From Candidatus Bartonella washoeensis Sb944nv (lineage in GTDB: Bacteria; Pseudomonadota; Alphaproteobacteria; Rhizobiales; Rhizobiaceae), in contig NZ_JH725022.1 in the NCBI RefSeq assembly GCF_000278135.1, forward strand, positions 256,186 through 320,185: 64,000 bases of DNA, read 5' to 3'. Both the position numbers and the translations under genes were made by a program. The notes beneath the pieces are model-generated. The model worked only from the letters and a program-made list of their open reading frames with translations, was not told the origin of the DNA and did no database searches. The stretch's first letter is position 1; every line of letters begins with the position of its first letter. Positions 30,716-35,627 of this stretch are shown here, piece after piece.

Positions 30716-31181
30716 TTATTTGGATGGAGTTTGCGTTCTATAGCAACACCAGCGGGTAATTTTTCGTATCCCACCGTCCTCATTGCGTCGGACAGCATAA
30801 CAATAATGCTGATTGGGAAAAACATGCCGTTGCATGTCGCGTACGATGCCAGTAGCGTTGTCCATAGGGCGCGACACAATCAATGAACCACATATACTTT
30901 CCACCTTGCCAATTGGCATTGGGTAAAAGTTCTCCCTTTTCAAGCATAGATTGATGATTTTTCTCATCTAAAAAAGCCCAAGTGATAAAAGCGCAAAATT
31001 CTCCGTGCTCGTTTTTATAGAGTTTGTACTGGCCAGTGCGTAAGGCTGGTCCTATATTGAATTCGATATCCCAAATTCGCCAACGGCGGTATAAGGGGGA
31101 TGTAAGCATTAAAATGACCATAGCTCCTAAAGCTGGAACAGGATCTATGGATGATGGTAAAGGATTTTCATTCACACACAT
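30716..31181 (-). pseudogene. HlyC-like toxin-activating lysine acyltransferase, frameshifted
   Basis: HlyC-family enzymes transfer fatty acyl chains from acyl-ACP to lysines of RTX toxins. The first frame (31181 to about 30865) matches well: ALGAMVILMLTSPLYRRW, QYKLYKNEHGEFCAFITWAF and GGKYMWFIDCVAPYG. The expected continuation, DNATGIVRDMQRHVFPNQHY and GGIRKITRW, is found in the next frame down to 30716. One base is therefore missing near 30863-30868. The catalytic His of HlyC (PLHRNW, His23) is Tyr here (PLYRRW, codon TAC), while the Asp of WFID is kept. It is the third gene after the transporter and HlyD genes, 6 bases from hlyD. Probably inactive. Confidence 0.8.
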
Positions 31182-31187
31182 TAATCT

Positions 31188-32513
31188 TTATCTTTCTTTT
31201 AGAGATTGTTCTAAAATTTTAGTAATAGGCTCAAAGAAATAGGAAATGAGACGCCGTTTTGCCGTGATGACATCAGCTGTTACGGTCATGCCTGGGATAA
31301 ATTTAAGCTGTTTACCATTCAAAGTGATATGATCTTGGTCGATTTTGATTAAAACGGCATAGGCACCATTAATTTCTTTATCATAGCGTGCTGTAGCGCC
31401 TACATTAACGACAGTGCCGTAAATAACGCCGAAACGTTCAGGCGGAAAGGCGGAAAATTTTACATAAACACGTTGGCCTTTTTCTAAAAAACCAATATCT
31501 CGATTATCAAAAAATGCTTCGACAATGAGGCCACCCGCAACAGGGACAATACGCATGAGAGTTTTACCAGCTTCTACAAAGCCACCCAAAGTGTGGATAG
31601 TTAAATCATCGATACGTCCATCAACGGGTGCATAGAGTGATAAGTGGTCAAGGCGGTATTGCGTGCTATCAAGCTTTGCTTTTAATCCTTGAAGATTCAG
31701 TTCTGTTTCACGCGAAAGTTGACGGTAGTGGGCGATTTCATCGGAAATGAGGCTTTGCTGTTGTTGGTGGAGGGTGTTTATTTCGGCGGCATTTTCTTCC
31801 AAACGTCTTTGATTGGTTAAAATGTCATGCTCAACATTTTTGAGGTCATGTAAACGCTCTAAGTAAAGTGCTTGGCTGATGACTTTTGTTTCCATCAGGC
31901 TTTTTGCAGCTTTTAGTTTTCCTTGGCTTAATTGACGATCATCTTCTAACCTATCTAATTGCGCATGTTGTGTAGCACCGTTGCGCACGATGCGATCAGA
32001 TTGGGCTTTTAGTGCTTTTAATTTATCTTGAAGAGATTGAAGGGTAGCGCTAATGAGTTTTTTCCCTTCCATTCTTGCAGTCGTATTGCTGGAGGAAGGG
32101 ATTTGCAGATAGGTAATCCCTTTGGTTACAAAGTCTTTATCCAAAGGATCGCTTTCCTTTAAAGCTGTTAAAATAGCTGTTGCGATTTGTGCTTGAAGGG
32201 TTTGTTGTGCGATATCTGCTTGAACACGTGCGCGCTCATTGAGGGCTTCACGTTGGTCCAATTGAATAAGAAGATCGCCTTGATGGACAAATTGACCTTC
32301 TTTGACCAGAATTTGCTCAATGCGACCTGTGTTTTGTGCTTGCACTAGCTGAACGTAAGCGGTGGGAATAACACTTCCTTGTCCTTGTGCAACAATCTCT
32401 GTTTTTGCGATAAAGCTCCCGATCACAATAAAGAGGAATAAGGCGATCAAAACAGCAACCACCATATGAAGCGTTGGCGATAAAGGGCGCAAATAGGGAG
32501 CTTTATCGGCCAT
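31188..32513 (-). CDS. HlyD family type I secretion adaptor (membrane fusion protein)
   Basis: A 441-residue periplasmic adaptor linking an ABC transporter to a TolC-like outer-membrane channel. There is a short cytoplasmic start, one membrane helix (about residues 16-37), then the first lipoyl half GRIEQILVKEGQFVHQGDLL (about 62-81). Long coiled-coil helices (about 90-290) follow, then the second lipoyl half LYAPVDGRIDDLTIHTLGG and a beta domain. The C-terminal part with GMTVTADVITAKRRLISYF fits the HlyD/PrtE group. Its start overlaps the transporter stop by 11 bases, showing one operon. This gene is intact. No TolC gene lies in the window. Confidence 0.92.
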   Translation of the reverse strand: MADKAPYLRPLSPTLHMVVAVLIALFLFIVIGSFIAKTEIVAQGQGSVIPTAYVQLVQAQNTGRIEQILVKEGQFVHQGDLLIQLDQREALNERARVQADIAQQTLQAQIATAILTALKESDPLDKDFVTKGITYLQIPSSSNTTARMEGKKLISATLQSLQDKLKALKAQSDRIVRNGATQHAQLDRLEDDRQLSQGKLKAAKSLMETKVISQALYLERLHDLKNVEHDILTNQRRLEENAAEINTLHQQQQSLISDEIAHYRQLSRETELNLQGLKAKLDSTQYRLDHLSLYAPVDGRIDDLTIHTLGGFVEAGKTLMRIVPVAGGLIVEAFFDNRDIGFLEKGQRVYVKFSAFPPERFGVIYGTVVNVGATARYDKEINGAYAVLIKIDQDHITLNGKQLKFIPGMTVTADVITAKRRLISYFFEPITKILEQSLKER

Positions 32514-34171
32514 TTTTTGCTTCCAGATCAGTGAAGTTTAAGACAGTTGCATGCTGGGGAAAAAGATCACGTTTGTGAGTAATGACGAGAACGATGCGTT
32601 CTTGCGAAAGTTGATATAAATGCTTAACAATCTGTGCACTGACTGTGTCATCTAATGCGGAAGTAGGTTCATCCAAAATGAGAATGCTTGGGTTTATCAG
32701 AAAGAAACAGGCCAAAGCCAAACGTTGGCGTTGACCACCTGATAAAAATCCACCTTGCTCTCCCACTTGAGTATTGAGTCCTAGAGGCAACTGAGCAATC
32801 AAATCTTGACAAGCACTAGCATACAGTGCAGCGTCTATTTCATCCTTTGTGGCATCGGGTTTGGCGAGAAGCATATTCTCAAGAATGGTTCCGGAAAAAA
32901 GGCAAGGATTTTGGGGAAAATATGCGATTGTTTTACGCACGCTACGGAAATCAAAATTCTGTAAAGGTTGTGCGTTAATCAATATCTTCCCGCTTGTTGG
33001 TGGATAGAGACCACAAAGGAGCTTCGCCAAGGTTGTTTTTCCGCACCCTGAAGGACCAAGTAACATAATCGGTTGCCCAGGTTGTAAATAGACATCAAGA
33101 TGATTGATAATGGGCTTCTCTCCATAAGAAAAACGGATATTTTGGGCTTCAAGATGAGGTATTGTGGTGAGCTGAAGGGGAGGCTTTTCATTTTCCCATT
33201 CTGAAGGGGCGTTAAGAATATCGCCCAAACGAAGACGAGAGATTTTTAAGTGCTGCCATTCTTCCCATAAAGAGGCAAGGCTTAAAATAGGACCAGAAAC
33301 ATTGCCGGCGAGGAGGTGAAAGGCAATAAGTTGCCCTAGTGTGATTTGGTTTTGAAGAACTGCTTGAGCACCAAAAAAGATAATAAAAATAATGAAAAGA
33401 TCACCAAAGATATGACTCATGGCTCCATTGAGAAGATGTAATTTATTGGTTGTAAGGCTTTGATCTAAACTACGGGCTAAAGTTTCTTGCATGCGTATCG
33501 TATGGGCTGGTTCCTTTACATGTGCTTTGATGGCTTCAAGATTAGTAAAACTTTCAATAAGGCGCGATTTATGGACAGCTTGCAGAGTGAAAGCACGGCG
33601 TAATTGGCGGCGCAAGAAGGGACCGACCAACGCTAAAGAACCCATTTGCAAGGGTAAAATGATAAGGACAATAAAGGTAAGTTTGGGACTAATGGAAAAG
33701 AGTGCAGCAATATAAATAATGGCAAAGAGAAAATTCAATACGATTGTGGCAATGGTTCCAGTTAAAAAAAACACGAATTGTATCAACTTCTCCAATACGC
33801 GTGAACAGTTCTCCTACTTGCCAAGTGCGTAAAATAGGCAAGGAGAGGCTTAACACATGGGTATAAATACGACTTACAAATTCTAGAGTTAGCCGATTGG
33901 CTAAGTAAGCTCCTAAATATCCTGAGAGAGAGCTAAGAGCCGTGCTAAACAGCATGATAGCAATCATAAGGACAACGATAGCATAGAGGCTTTCCGCACG
34001 CTGGAAGGGGAGAATACGGTCAATAATCGCTTGAAAAATAAAAGGATTTACCAAGCCCAGCAACCGCAAAACAACAGCAACGCAACAGAGTTCGATGACA
34101 TAATAAATATATTTCTTTGTCGTTCTTGTAAACCAAGAGAACGATACTAGCTTTTCTTGTGAGTGATTCAT
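32503..34171 (-). pseudogene. HlyB-like type I secretion ABC transporter, interrupted at an A8 tract
   Basis: Two overlapping frames together encode an HlyB-type exporter. The first (34171 to about 33771) has SWFTRTTKKYI, several membrane helices and GELFTRIGEVDTIR. The continuation (FFLTGTIATIVLNF onward) is one base out of frame. The junction is a run of eight A residues on the plus strand (33764-33771); seven would restore the frame. The nucleotide-binding domain is complete: Walker A GPSGCGKTT, Q loop FPQNPCLF, signature LSGGQRQRLAL, Walker B ILILDEPTSALDD and switch His in VITHKRD. The N-terminal peptidase-like domain of HlyB (about 130 residues) is absent. It could be a true pseudogene, phase-variable, or rescued by slippage. 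Confidence 0.85.
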
Positions 34172-34424
34172 TTGAATTTATGATTTTGTTTAAGAGAAAG
34201 AGCGATTGATGTCGCATATTTAAACAGTATTGTAAATAGTATTATTACTCAACAAAACATACGTTTTGTATAAATACAATATAAGCATAATGTATTTATT
34301 GTTTATAAATTATTTTTATTGTTATTTATACAAATTATATTTTACATTTGCTAAAATGAATAATAATAAAATTCCAGCTGTATTGTTCTGATACAGTTAT
34401 TTTAATAATATAAGGAGAATTTGT
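34172..34424. promoter_or_regulatory. divergent promoter region with two palindromes
   Basis: This 250-base AT-rich region separates the leftward secretion operon from the rightward glycine-zipper gene. It holds CAAAAC-ATAC-GTTTTG at 34253-34268, and ATAAATACA at 34270-34278 paired with TGTATTTAT at 34291-34299. These are plausible operators for a shared regulator. A strong ribosome-binding site AAGGAG at 34412-34417 serves the rightward gene. Confidence 0.45.
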
Positions 34425-34763
34425 ATGTTTGGTTGGCTTAGTGGTTGGTCTAATACTGGTTTGTCTCATAGTTCGTCTAATGCTTGGTCTGATATTTCAT
34501 CAATTAATTTTTCAAGTAGTGGATCACAGCCTGGGTGTACTGTCGGCGATTATCTCTCTACAGCAAATTCATACGGAGTGGTGGGAAGAGATATAGGAAG
34601 AACTGGTGGAGTATTTGTAGGCGGTATAGCCGGAGGTCTTTCATCAGGCGGATTGGGTATGATTTTAGGTGCAGGAACCGGTGGAGGAATCGGTGCAGGT
34701 CTTGGCTATGGGGTAGGAGCAGGTATAGGTTTAAATGCTCAGTATAACGCGTGCTATTATTAA
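34425..34763 (+). CDS. glycine-zipper bacteriocin-like protein, putative type I secretion substrate
   Basis: A 112-residue protein. The N-terminal third is Ser/Asn/Trp-rich without a Sec signal or an obvious double-glycine leader. Residues about 58-102 are an almost unbroken series of overlapping GxxxG motifs (from GRTGG to VGAGIG), a hydrophobic glycine zipper able to insert in or assemble on membranes. Cysteines at 38 and 110 could form a disulfide near the C-terminus ACYY. AAGGAG lies 7 bases before the ATG. It is divergent from the HlyB/HlyD/HlyC operon and followed by three small membrane proteins. Class II microcins and the Caulobacter CdzC/CdzD proteins share the small, glycine-zipper character and type I neighbours. 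Function is inferred. Confidence 0.7.
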   Translation: MFGWLSGWSNTGLSHSSSNAWSDISSINFSSSGSQPGCTVGDYLSTANSYGVVGRDIGRTGGVFVGGIAGGLSSGGLGMILGAGTGGGIGAGLGYGVGAGIGLNAQYNACYY

Positions 34764-34894
34764 TAATAAGTTTTTAAATTGTTAATGATATTGTAGATAT
34801 ATTTTAGTGAATATATCTACAAACATTTGTAACTAAAATATATTATTAGTAATAATTTAAATTATAATTATATTAAGTTGGAAATTTGTACATT

Positions 34895-35098
34895 ATGTAT
34901 ATTTTAAATATTATTAATGAATTATTTTTATTAGTTTGCTTTTTAAGTATATTTATATATTTATTTGAATTGTATTATAAATCTAAGGGATGTAATGAAA
35001 AAAACATTAAAATAAAATCATTAATAAGAATAATTTCATTTTTTATATTATTCTTTATATTATTTTCCCTATTTAAGTTTTATATTAATACAATTTAA
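34895..35098 (+). CDS. small two-helix membrane protein, candidate immunity protein 1
   Basis: 67 residues from ATG 34895 (an in-frame TTG at 34886 would add three). Hydrophobic helix about 8-27, a Lys-rich loop (YKSKGCNEKNIKIK), then a second helix about 43-62. Base composition is far more AT-rich than the core genes. It has the size and hairpin topology of microcin and bacteriocin immunity proteins such as Cvi, but no sequence family is recognised. First of three similar-sized genes after the glycine-zipper gene. Confidence 0.5.
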   Translation: MYILNIINELFLLVCFLSIFIYLFELYYKSKGCNEKNIKIKSLIRIISFFILFFILFSLFKFYINTI

Positions 35099-35150
35099 TT
35101 AAATATATTTTATATTTATTTATTTTATATAATTTTAAGTGGAATTTATT

Positions 35151-35330
35151 ATGGATGATATTTTATTTAATATTAAAAATGCGTTACTTGCAACAAATAT
35201 ATTTCTATTTTTAAGCATATTTTCCTCTAAATTAAAATTCCCTACTTGGAAAAATTCTATTAAATTAGGATTTGTTATAATTATCATATACTTTACAATA
35301 TATTTTGGACTTTATTATTTTATAAACTAA
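35151..35330 (+). CDS. small two-helix membrane protein, candidate immunity protein 2
   Basis: 59 residues from ATG 35151; a GTG at 35139 is an alternative start. Helix about 10-27, a short basic loop (SKLKFPTWKNSIK) and a second helix about 39-57. AAGTGGAA lies upstream as a weak ribosome-binding site. Very AT-rich, like its neighbours. No named family is recognised; the position in the cluster suggests the same role as the flanking genes. Confidence 0.45.
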   Translation: MDDILFNIKNALLATNIFLFLSIFSSKLKFPTWKNSIKLGFVIIIIYFTIYFGLYYFIN

Positions 35331-35393
35331 TATTATATAAAATATCTATGTATTTTATATTTTTATTGTCGATTATTGTAGTGGGTATTGTTA

Positions 35394-35627
35394 ATGTGGA
35401 CAGATTTTAGTAATTTTGTTGTAAATATGTTATTTTCAATAATAAGTGTAGTTACAATTATATATTATTTATTATTACTAAATAAATATAAAAATTATAA
35501 TACAAAAGAATACAAAAAAAATATATTATTGTTAGTGATAGGTTTAATTTTTGTAATTGTTTTTATAATAATTTTTATGAATATATACTATAAATTTAAT
35601 TTATTTAATAGCATATTAAATGTATAA
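35394..35627 (+). CDS. small two-helix membrane protein, candidate immunity protein 3
   Basis: 77 residues from ATG 35394; a TTG at 35388 is possible. Helix about 8-28 (MLFSIISVVTIIYYLLLL), a Lys/Tyr/Asn-rich loop and a long second helix (LLLVIGLIFVIVFIIIF). It shares size and layout, but not clear sequence identity, with the two genes before it. It ends the rightward cluster. Function unknown. Confidence 0.5.
   Translation: MWTDFSNFVVNMLFSIISVVTIIYYLLLLNKYKNYNTKEYKKNILLLVIGLIFVIVFIIIFMNIYYKFNLFNSILNV

Follow-up and report, generated by a model that had tools for sequence, protein, structure and literature searches.

A glycine-zipper peptide gene opposite a compact haemolysin-type exporter operon in Bartonella: a proposed polymorphic bacteriocin locus of the type I secretion kind

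The window analysed here, 64,000 nt of contig NZ_JH725022.1 of Candidatus Bartonella washoeensis Sb944nv (positions 256,186 to 320,185; source genome of 1.97 Mb in 11 contigs), contains the gene of a 112-residue glycine-zipper peptide, which lies opposite an HlyB/HlyD/HlyC-type operon and is followed by three genes for small membrane proteins. We read this arrangement, with a probability of roughly 0.6, as a polymorphic bacteriocin locus of the type I secretion system kind. The peptide occurs together with the exporter and no exporter-free homologues were seen, therefore a type I-exported bacteriocin-like locus, as proposed in a preliminary description, is well supported as a hypothesis; kinship with class II microcins and function in this strain are not supported, and the contact- or surface-type action also proposed there is a possibility. 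A tiny, fast-changing peptide appears to replace the haemolysin toxin beside a haemolysin-type exporter and a lipid-attaching enzyme, and the repeats-in-toxin (RTX)-type acyltransferase without an RTX toxin is the most unusual part of the locus.

The peptide gene occupies 34425-34763 of the plus strand with an ATG start, and the ribosome-binding site AAGGAG is located upstream at 34412-34417 of the same strand. The peptide is 26.8% Gly and holds 19 overlapping GxxxG motifs, compared with a mean of 7.5 in 10,000 composition shuffles, none of which reaches that number. Residues 58-102 contain 15 GxxxG motifs versus a shuffle mean of 9.6 (P 0.002). A filter for Gly-rich, GxxxG-bearing open reading frames (ORFs) passes only this ORF in the 64-kb window. 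The coordinates, the strong ribosome-binding site and the GxxxG chain of the preliminary description were thus borne out. The window peptide contains Cys38 and Cys110. In an alignment of twenty Bartonella peptides, the N-terminus is rich in Ser, and the Gly-zipper body stands between one Cys and another Cys close to the C-terminus. Twelve of the 20 begin with Met-Gly or Met-Ala, the window type begins with Met-Phe-Gly, and 17 of the 20 have at least two Cys. In one alignment column near the C-terminus, Lys is present in 11 of the 20. Some Bartonella peptides are tandem-repeated and extend to about 280 aa. The N-terminal motif was noticed first and was afterwards used for placing or accepting starts in the peptide-family, hlyB-flank and palindrome counts.

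The genus was surveyed in 71 Bartonella genomes. HlyC or its remnants were found in 29 (28 above the cut-off), and peptide sequence matches in 18, all of which fall within those 29 (Fisher p 1e-9, not corrected for kinship; the values overstate independence because the genomes are related). The co-occurrence of peptide, membrane genes and exporter, suggested earlier as a check, was therefore positive in Bartonella, as it was in rhizobia, and homologues consistently separated from an exporter were not seen in the 18 peptide-bearing genomes, second-site peptides included. RTX repeats (PF00353) were detected in 12 of the 71 genomes and in none of the 29 with HlyC or remnants, the source genome included. 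The RTX-repeat genomes (G003, G004, G014, G044-G046, G057 and G059-G063) contain several frames of more than 6,000 aa and are without this HlyC.

The position of the peptide gene relative to hlyB is well defined. A divergent Gly-rich ORF was observed within 700 bp of 26 of 33 hlyB 5' ends, namely 22 of 26 full-length ends and 4 of 7 fragments, where full-length ends were judged by DNA alignment and interrupted ones were counted as full-length. In 17 of the 22 full-length positives, the ORF starts 244-263 bp from the hlyB 5' end as listed; for late-starting alignments, that of the window among them, the listed distance overstates the true one by up to 9. Two of the seven misses carry an 85-aa MGSSSSS-type peptide without a Gly zipper 252 bp from hlyB; the others are a Pro/Cys-rich 75-aa ORF at 240 bp, a fragment with an MGSSSSS ORF at 413 bp, two decayed loci and one masked locus. 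An additional locus (L093) is truncated. Non-zipper peptides occupy the same spot, therefore the site and not the zipper is constant, and the Gly zipper is just one among several cargo types.

A compact HlyB, HlyD and HlyC with a small adjoining peptide were also found in Rhizobium, Ensifer/Sinorhizobium and other Hyphomicrobiales. The HlyC neighbourhoods of 45 non-Bartonella loci were examined (some genomes twice), loci without HlyB near HlyC, such as L134 and L198, were left out of the counts, and the labels 'small peptide' and 'RTX' were assigned by eye and by repeat pattern. Where HlyB is at least 39% identical to Bartonella HlyB, 14 of 15 distinct loci have an adjoining small ORF that is Gly/Ser-rich at its start or in its body (that of L195 was read in frame, with no usual start codon listed), and none of the 15 has RTX repeats by the pattern used. 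Where the nearby HlyB is at most 34% identical, an RTX-repeat protein is present in 8 of 10 loci, the exceptions being L137 and L182. HlyB measures 551-573 aa in nearly all peptide-type loci (599 in L192, probably from an upstream start) and 728-764 aa in three RTX loci. Non-zipper peptides are found in L181, L190, L191 and L192. Rhizobium peptides begin with MGGSS and have a ribosome-binding site upstream. In two Rhizobium-type loci an Rce1-like/CPBP ORF adjoins the peptide, and the Rce1-like family includes bacteriocin immunity proteins. Among the loci left out of the counts, L134, which comes from the same genome as L177, contains HlyC together with part of HlyD and a peptide-like ORF; in L198, HlyC is accompanied by a peptide where the contig ends. 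The locus would join two usually separate subjects, peptide bacteriocins and the lipidation of RTX toxins, in plant-associated rhizobia and blood-borne Bartonella.

Three membrane-protein genes follow the window peptide on the plus strand: m1 (34895-35098, 67 aa), m2 (35151-35330, 59 aa) and m3 (35394-35627, 77 aa). Each is an ATG ORF with two hydrophobic stretches, the first of m2 being borderline, and each is a proposed immunity gene. A first-order Markov model of this 15% GC stretch gives a mean of 0.04 such plus-strand ORFs, and none of 2,000 simulations yields three; the earlier report of three two-helix proteins of 59-77 residues was thus confirmed above chance. Tiny hydrophobic ORFs within an AT-rich stretch would also fit a membrane toxin-antitoxin or small-hydrophobic stress module of the cell itself, placed near the exporter incidentally, but the exporter association holds across genera and this explanation is very improbable. 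Of the 20 loci with window-type or CSPSG-type peptides, 16 have homologues of m1-m3, compared with none of the 12 loci that hold other types only. The counts are of loci (several from one genome) at an E cut of 1e-8; at 1e-3, weaker m matches appear in L044 and L050. Four loci without a match to any tested peptide have no m1-m3 homologues either. A membrane gene is not always assignable to one peptide because some loci hold several peptide types. This pairing of membrane genes with peptide types is as expected of immunity genes.

The locus components also differ in their rate of change. Among chosen, mostly intact copies, the median pairwise ratio of nonsynonymous to synonymous substitution rates (dN/dS) is 0.10 for hlyB (55 pairs), 0.10 for hlyD (36 pairs) and 0.17 for hlyC (45 pairs), compared with 0.62 for the window-type peptide (21 pairs; range 0.45-3.08), 0.41 for m2 and 0.59 for m3 (10 pairs each). 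Purifying selection acts on the exporter genes, and the peptide changes quickly. Such fast change, together with type-matched membrane genes, fits rivalry between strains and argues against small membrane-active effectors that are delivered to host cells by haemolysin-type machinery, with the membrane genes protecting the producer. That explanation draws on the cytolysins served by HlyC, HlyB and HlyD relatives and on the named Bartonella carriers (an HlyC-alignment scan of named genomes gave 32 loci, 23 of them titled Bartonella), most of which are rodent-associated species, but the same gene set is present in Rhizobium, Ensifer/Sinorhizobium and Hyphomicrobiales metagenome-assembled genomes (MAGs), and we consider it unlikely.

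Exported structural or surface peptides, for example an aggregating adhesin, a biofilm component or an envelope component, are quite improbable. Gly zippers also build aggregates, and CdzC of Caulobacter forms aggregates at the cell surface (PMC5380434). Against a structural role stand the great diversity of cargo, including non-zipper cargo at the same site, and the type-matched membrane genes, as well as the window peptide itself, which has no Pfam match to Gly-zipper lipoprotein families (PF13488 and kin) at E values up to 1. A Gly-zipper lipoprotein was ruled out on this basis and on a start that is not signal-peptide-like by eye (no predictor was used).

An exact palindrome GTATC-N5-GATAC was observed in 17 of 23 aligned intergenic regions. 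In 35 loci (585 kb), all 25 exact copies fall 20-47 bp before a peptide start, with the starts behind palindromes accepted by the N-terminal pattern. The window carries the imperfect version GTATT-N5-GATAC at 34380-34394 (unstranded), a proposed operator for which relatives mostly have GTATC-N5-GATAC upstream of their peptides; the form TGTATY-N5-GATACA occurs once in the source genome. A promoter scan was close to shuffles (8 sites versus 6.1, sd 1.8). The Bartonella loci examined are hosted at two chromosomal sites. Extra peptide genes are adjoined by truncated hlyB 5' copies, and of 12 such pieces, 7 end at hlyB nucleotides 409-415, about four of them joined to sequence that is visibly alike. 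Orphan hlyB 5' fragments with this near-identical end occur in L038, L045, L087, L089 and L097, and the end looks like a cassette boundary. A second copy of the peptide gene, at 532442-532777 of contig 1 in the source genome (G000; 9043-9378 of L032), is 77% identical and contains three stops. This copy lies next to a truncated hlyB 5' end, and the flanks of its chromosomal site, which is not that of the window locus, are common to the loci of several relatives.

The operon opposite the peptide gene is located on the minus strand. It comprises an N-terminal piece of hlyB (33689-34171), the remaining hlyB piece in another frame with the rest of the membrane domain and the ATPase (32503-33795), an intact hlyD of 441 aa (31188-32513), a shortened hlyC frame (30780-31181) and the remainder of the hlyC homology in a frame different from that of the main piece (30719-30868). 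HlyD scores 325.8 bits against TIGR01843 (cut-off 208.65) and HlyC scores 88 bits against PF02794 (cut-off 25). The HlyB pieces match TIGR01846 best, at 335.4 and 79.5 bits, each alone below the full-length cut-off of 725.55. The HlyC of a relative matches ApxC (4whn) with an E value of 5e-17. The homologues announced in the preliminary description are therefore in place, but hlyB is split near codon 136 and hlyC is shortened by a frame shift near codon 107. Many relatives are unbroken and encode HlyB (555 aa) and HlyC (154 aa) in single frames. The hlyB break sits in a homopolymer run, and the frame of another genome (L039) is broken at the same position; slippage, shared descent or an assembly error may be the cause.

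A relic of an RTX operon that lost its toxin, with the peptide and the tiny ORFs as unrelated neighbours, could account for these breaks and for the interrupted or decayed operons of several other genomes. This explanation is disfavoured as very improbable, and was rejected on three grounds: RTX repeats are missing from the genomes with HlyC, the operon is intact and under purifying selection in many relatives, and the HlyC tree separates peptide-linked HlyC from RTX HlyC. The fixed spacing, the common palindrome and the co-occurrence argue in the same direction. In the tree, the 24 peptide-linked HlyC need 3 label changes compared with 17.4 in shuffles; it has 51 rows (3 of 54 dropped as duplicates), a long-branch warning and weakly supported deep branches.

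Several observations weigh against the bacteriocin reading. The frames of both hlyB and hlyC are broken in this genome, and interruption or decay also affects the operons of several others. A peptide match by sequence is lacking in 11 of the 29 HlyC genomes, although 8 of these 11 have a Gly-rich ORF beside hlyB, and no peptide was found in L200, 1 of the 15 comparable non-Bartonella loci. The AlphaFold2 model of the window peptide is weak (predicted local distance difference test 46, predicted template modelling score 0.25); helices are drawn at 40-74 and 77-111 between the two Cys, at a confidence too low to use. Lys is the residue that HlyC enzymes acylate, and 6 of the 20 aligned peptides, that of the window included, have none. 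Among 23 Bartonella HlyC found by an active-site search pattern, 14 keep the catalytic His and 9, with that of the window among them, have Tyr in its place; the pattern itself demanded Asp plus one of H, Y, F, N or Q. Tyr at this position was also noted in Ensifer and Hyphomicrobiales MAGs. The Lys-free peptides and the Tyr substitution argue against simple Lys acylation. The catalytic dyad of the family is described as His/Asp (PMC8510554), where the window HlyC has Tyr and Asp; some activity is reported to remain without the His (PMC8510554), and this His is called conserved throughout RtxC proteins (PMC8339906).

The bacteriocin reading suggests the following mechanism. The small peptide would be made from one arm of the divergent promoter region. 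The likeliest export route is HlyB and HlyD with a TolC-type channel, for which the source genome has two candidate genes; the compact HlyB would export the peptide in one step. The last gene of the operon encodes the HlyC-type acyltransferase, which probably attaches a lipid to the cargo or matures it in some other way. RTX toxins are lipidated by relatives of HlyC, as is the antibacterial CdiA in class IV contact-dependent growth inhibition (CDI; PMC8510554); therefore lipidation of the peptide, or a role of HlyC as a maturation aid, is plausible. A bridge between two Cys probably closes the Gly-zipper hairpin, which would insert into the membrane of related competitors, and the two-helix membrane proteins would confer immunity. 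New peptide/immunity cassettes appear to arrive next to hlyB, and older ones stay behind with truncated hlyB 5' ends. With its exporter and acyltransferase frames interrupted, the window strain is therefore probably a non-producer, which would retain the peptide and immunity genes without production.

A more tentative extension, which we consider unlikely, is a separate Hyphomicrobiales class of lipid-modified bacteriocins. An HlyC freed from RTX toxins would acylate the N-terminus of small hypervariable peptides (often Met-Gly-Ser or Gly-Ser, with an N-terminal Gly after Met removal) in a manner like N-myristoylation. The active-site His and Lys would no longer be strictly needed, and whole peptide/immunity cassettes would be exchanged at a single site that is marked by the palindrome and anchored by hlyB. 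The locus offers a natural experiment on the HlyC acylation target without an RTX toxin and, in some strains, without a Lys in the cargo. It also provides naturally variable peptide/immunity pairs, and the common palindrome eases the finding of more members.

The locus resembles several known systems in part. Like Cdz of Caulobacter (CdzABCDI; PMC5380434), it combines small Gly-zipper proteins, a type I exporter, small membrane immunity proteins (here proposed) and divergent operons in an alphaproteobacterium. Cdz-like proteins have 60-151 residues, a range that includes the 112-aa window peptide, whose glycine zipper is uninterrupted at residues 58-102 as judged by eye. They also have a leader ending in G[G/A/S], and CdzC has a cleaved mature form; no such leader is apparent by eye in the window peptide (no leader predictor was used). 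Unlike Cdz, the window-type locus has varied cargo types, cassettes that pile up, an exporter without a C39-like domain and an RTX-type acyltransferase, whereas the accessible text of PMC5380434 holds no word beginning 'acyl'. In an alignment with E. coli HlyB, the intact HlyB of a relative covers residues 139-664 and thus lacks the N-terminal C39-like domain. Class II microcins are small Gly-rich peptides with type I export, small immunity proteins, a double-Gly leader and a C39-peptidase exporter. The locus shares with them a small Gly-rich peptide, a type I exporter and small proposed immunity proteins, but kinship is unsupported because the exporter lacks the C39-like domain. The window locus is like Cdz in outline, and it is assigned here to neither Cdz nor the class II microcins.

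RTX operons have the order C-A-B-D and likewise contain HlyC, HlyB and HlyD homologues (hlyCABD or rtxCABD), an order mirrored by the hlyC-peptide-hlyB-hlyD arrangement of one Rhizobiaceae genus (L194-L197). The window family differs by the lack of RTX repeats in the 29 HlyC-bearing Bartonella genomes, by an HlyC that stands apart in the tree and by an HlyB about 150-200 aa shorter than RTX HlyB, without the C39-like domain. Class IV CDI with CdiC is similar in that an HlyC-family acyltransferase serves an antibacterial weapon (PMC8510554). CdiA is a giant two-partner-secreted protein, whereas the cargo here is a peptide of roughly 100 aa with a type I exporter. No account of an HlyC-linked peptide locus was found in the literature searched (subscription papers and preprints lay outside its scope), and the locus is apparently undescribed. 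The accessible text of PMC3610622 contains no mention of type I secretion, hemolysin, HlyD, bacteriocin or T1SS, and in that of PMC9336547 the word bacteriocin appears once only, within the reference list.

Two further assignments were rejected. A phage origin received no support from tblastn, with no match of the peptide or of a relative's HlyC among 50,697 phage records and weak PHROG matches only. A pilin-like family of NCBIfam matches m1 and m3 far below its cut-off, and these matches were taken as chance. Two rhizobial peptides match PF13488 below threshold (19.7 and 20.3 bits, cut-off 25). Most peptides of the L194-L198 genus contain an SFGGG motif, which resembles a leader end. In the pSymB record of Sinorhizobium meliloti Ak57 (L207), hlyB, hlyD and hlyC are annotated in that order without a peptide, and the 566-aa ABC protein is called 'peptidase domain-containing', which is the record's label only. 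A short unannotated divergent ORF is present in this record; its C-terminus alone resembles Rhizobium peptides, and its N-terminal part is unlike them.
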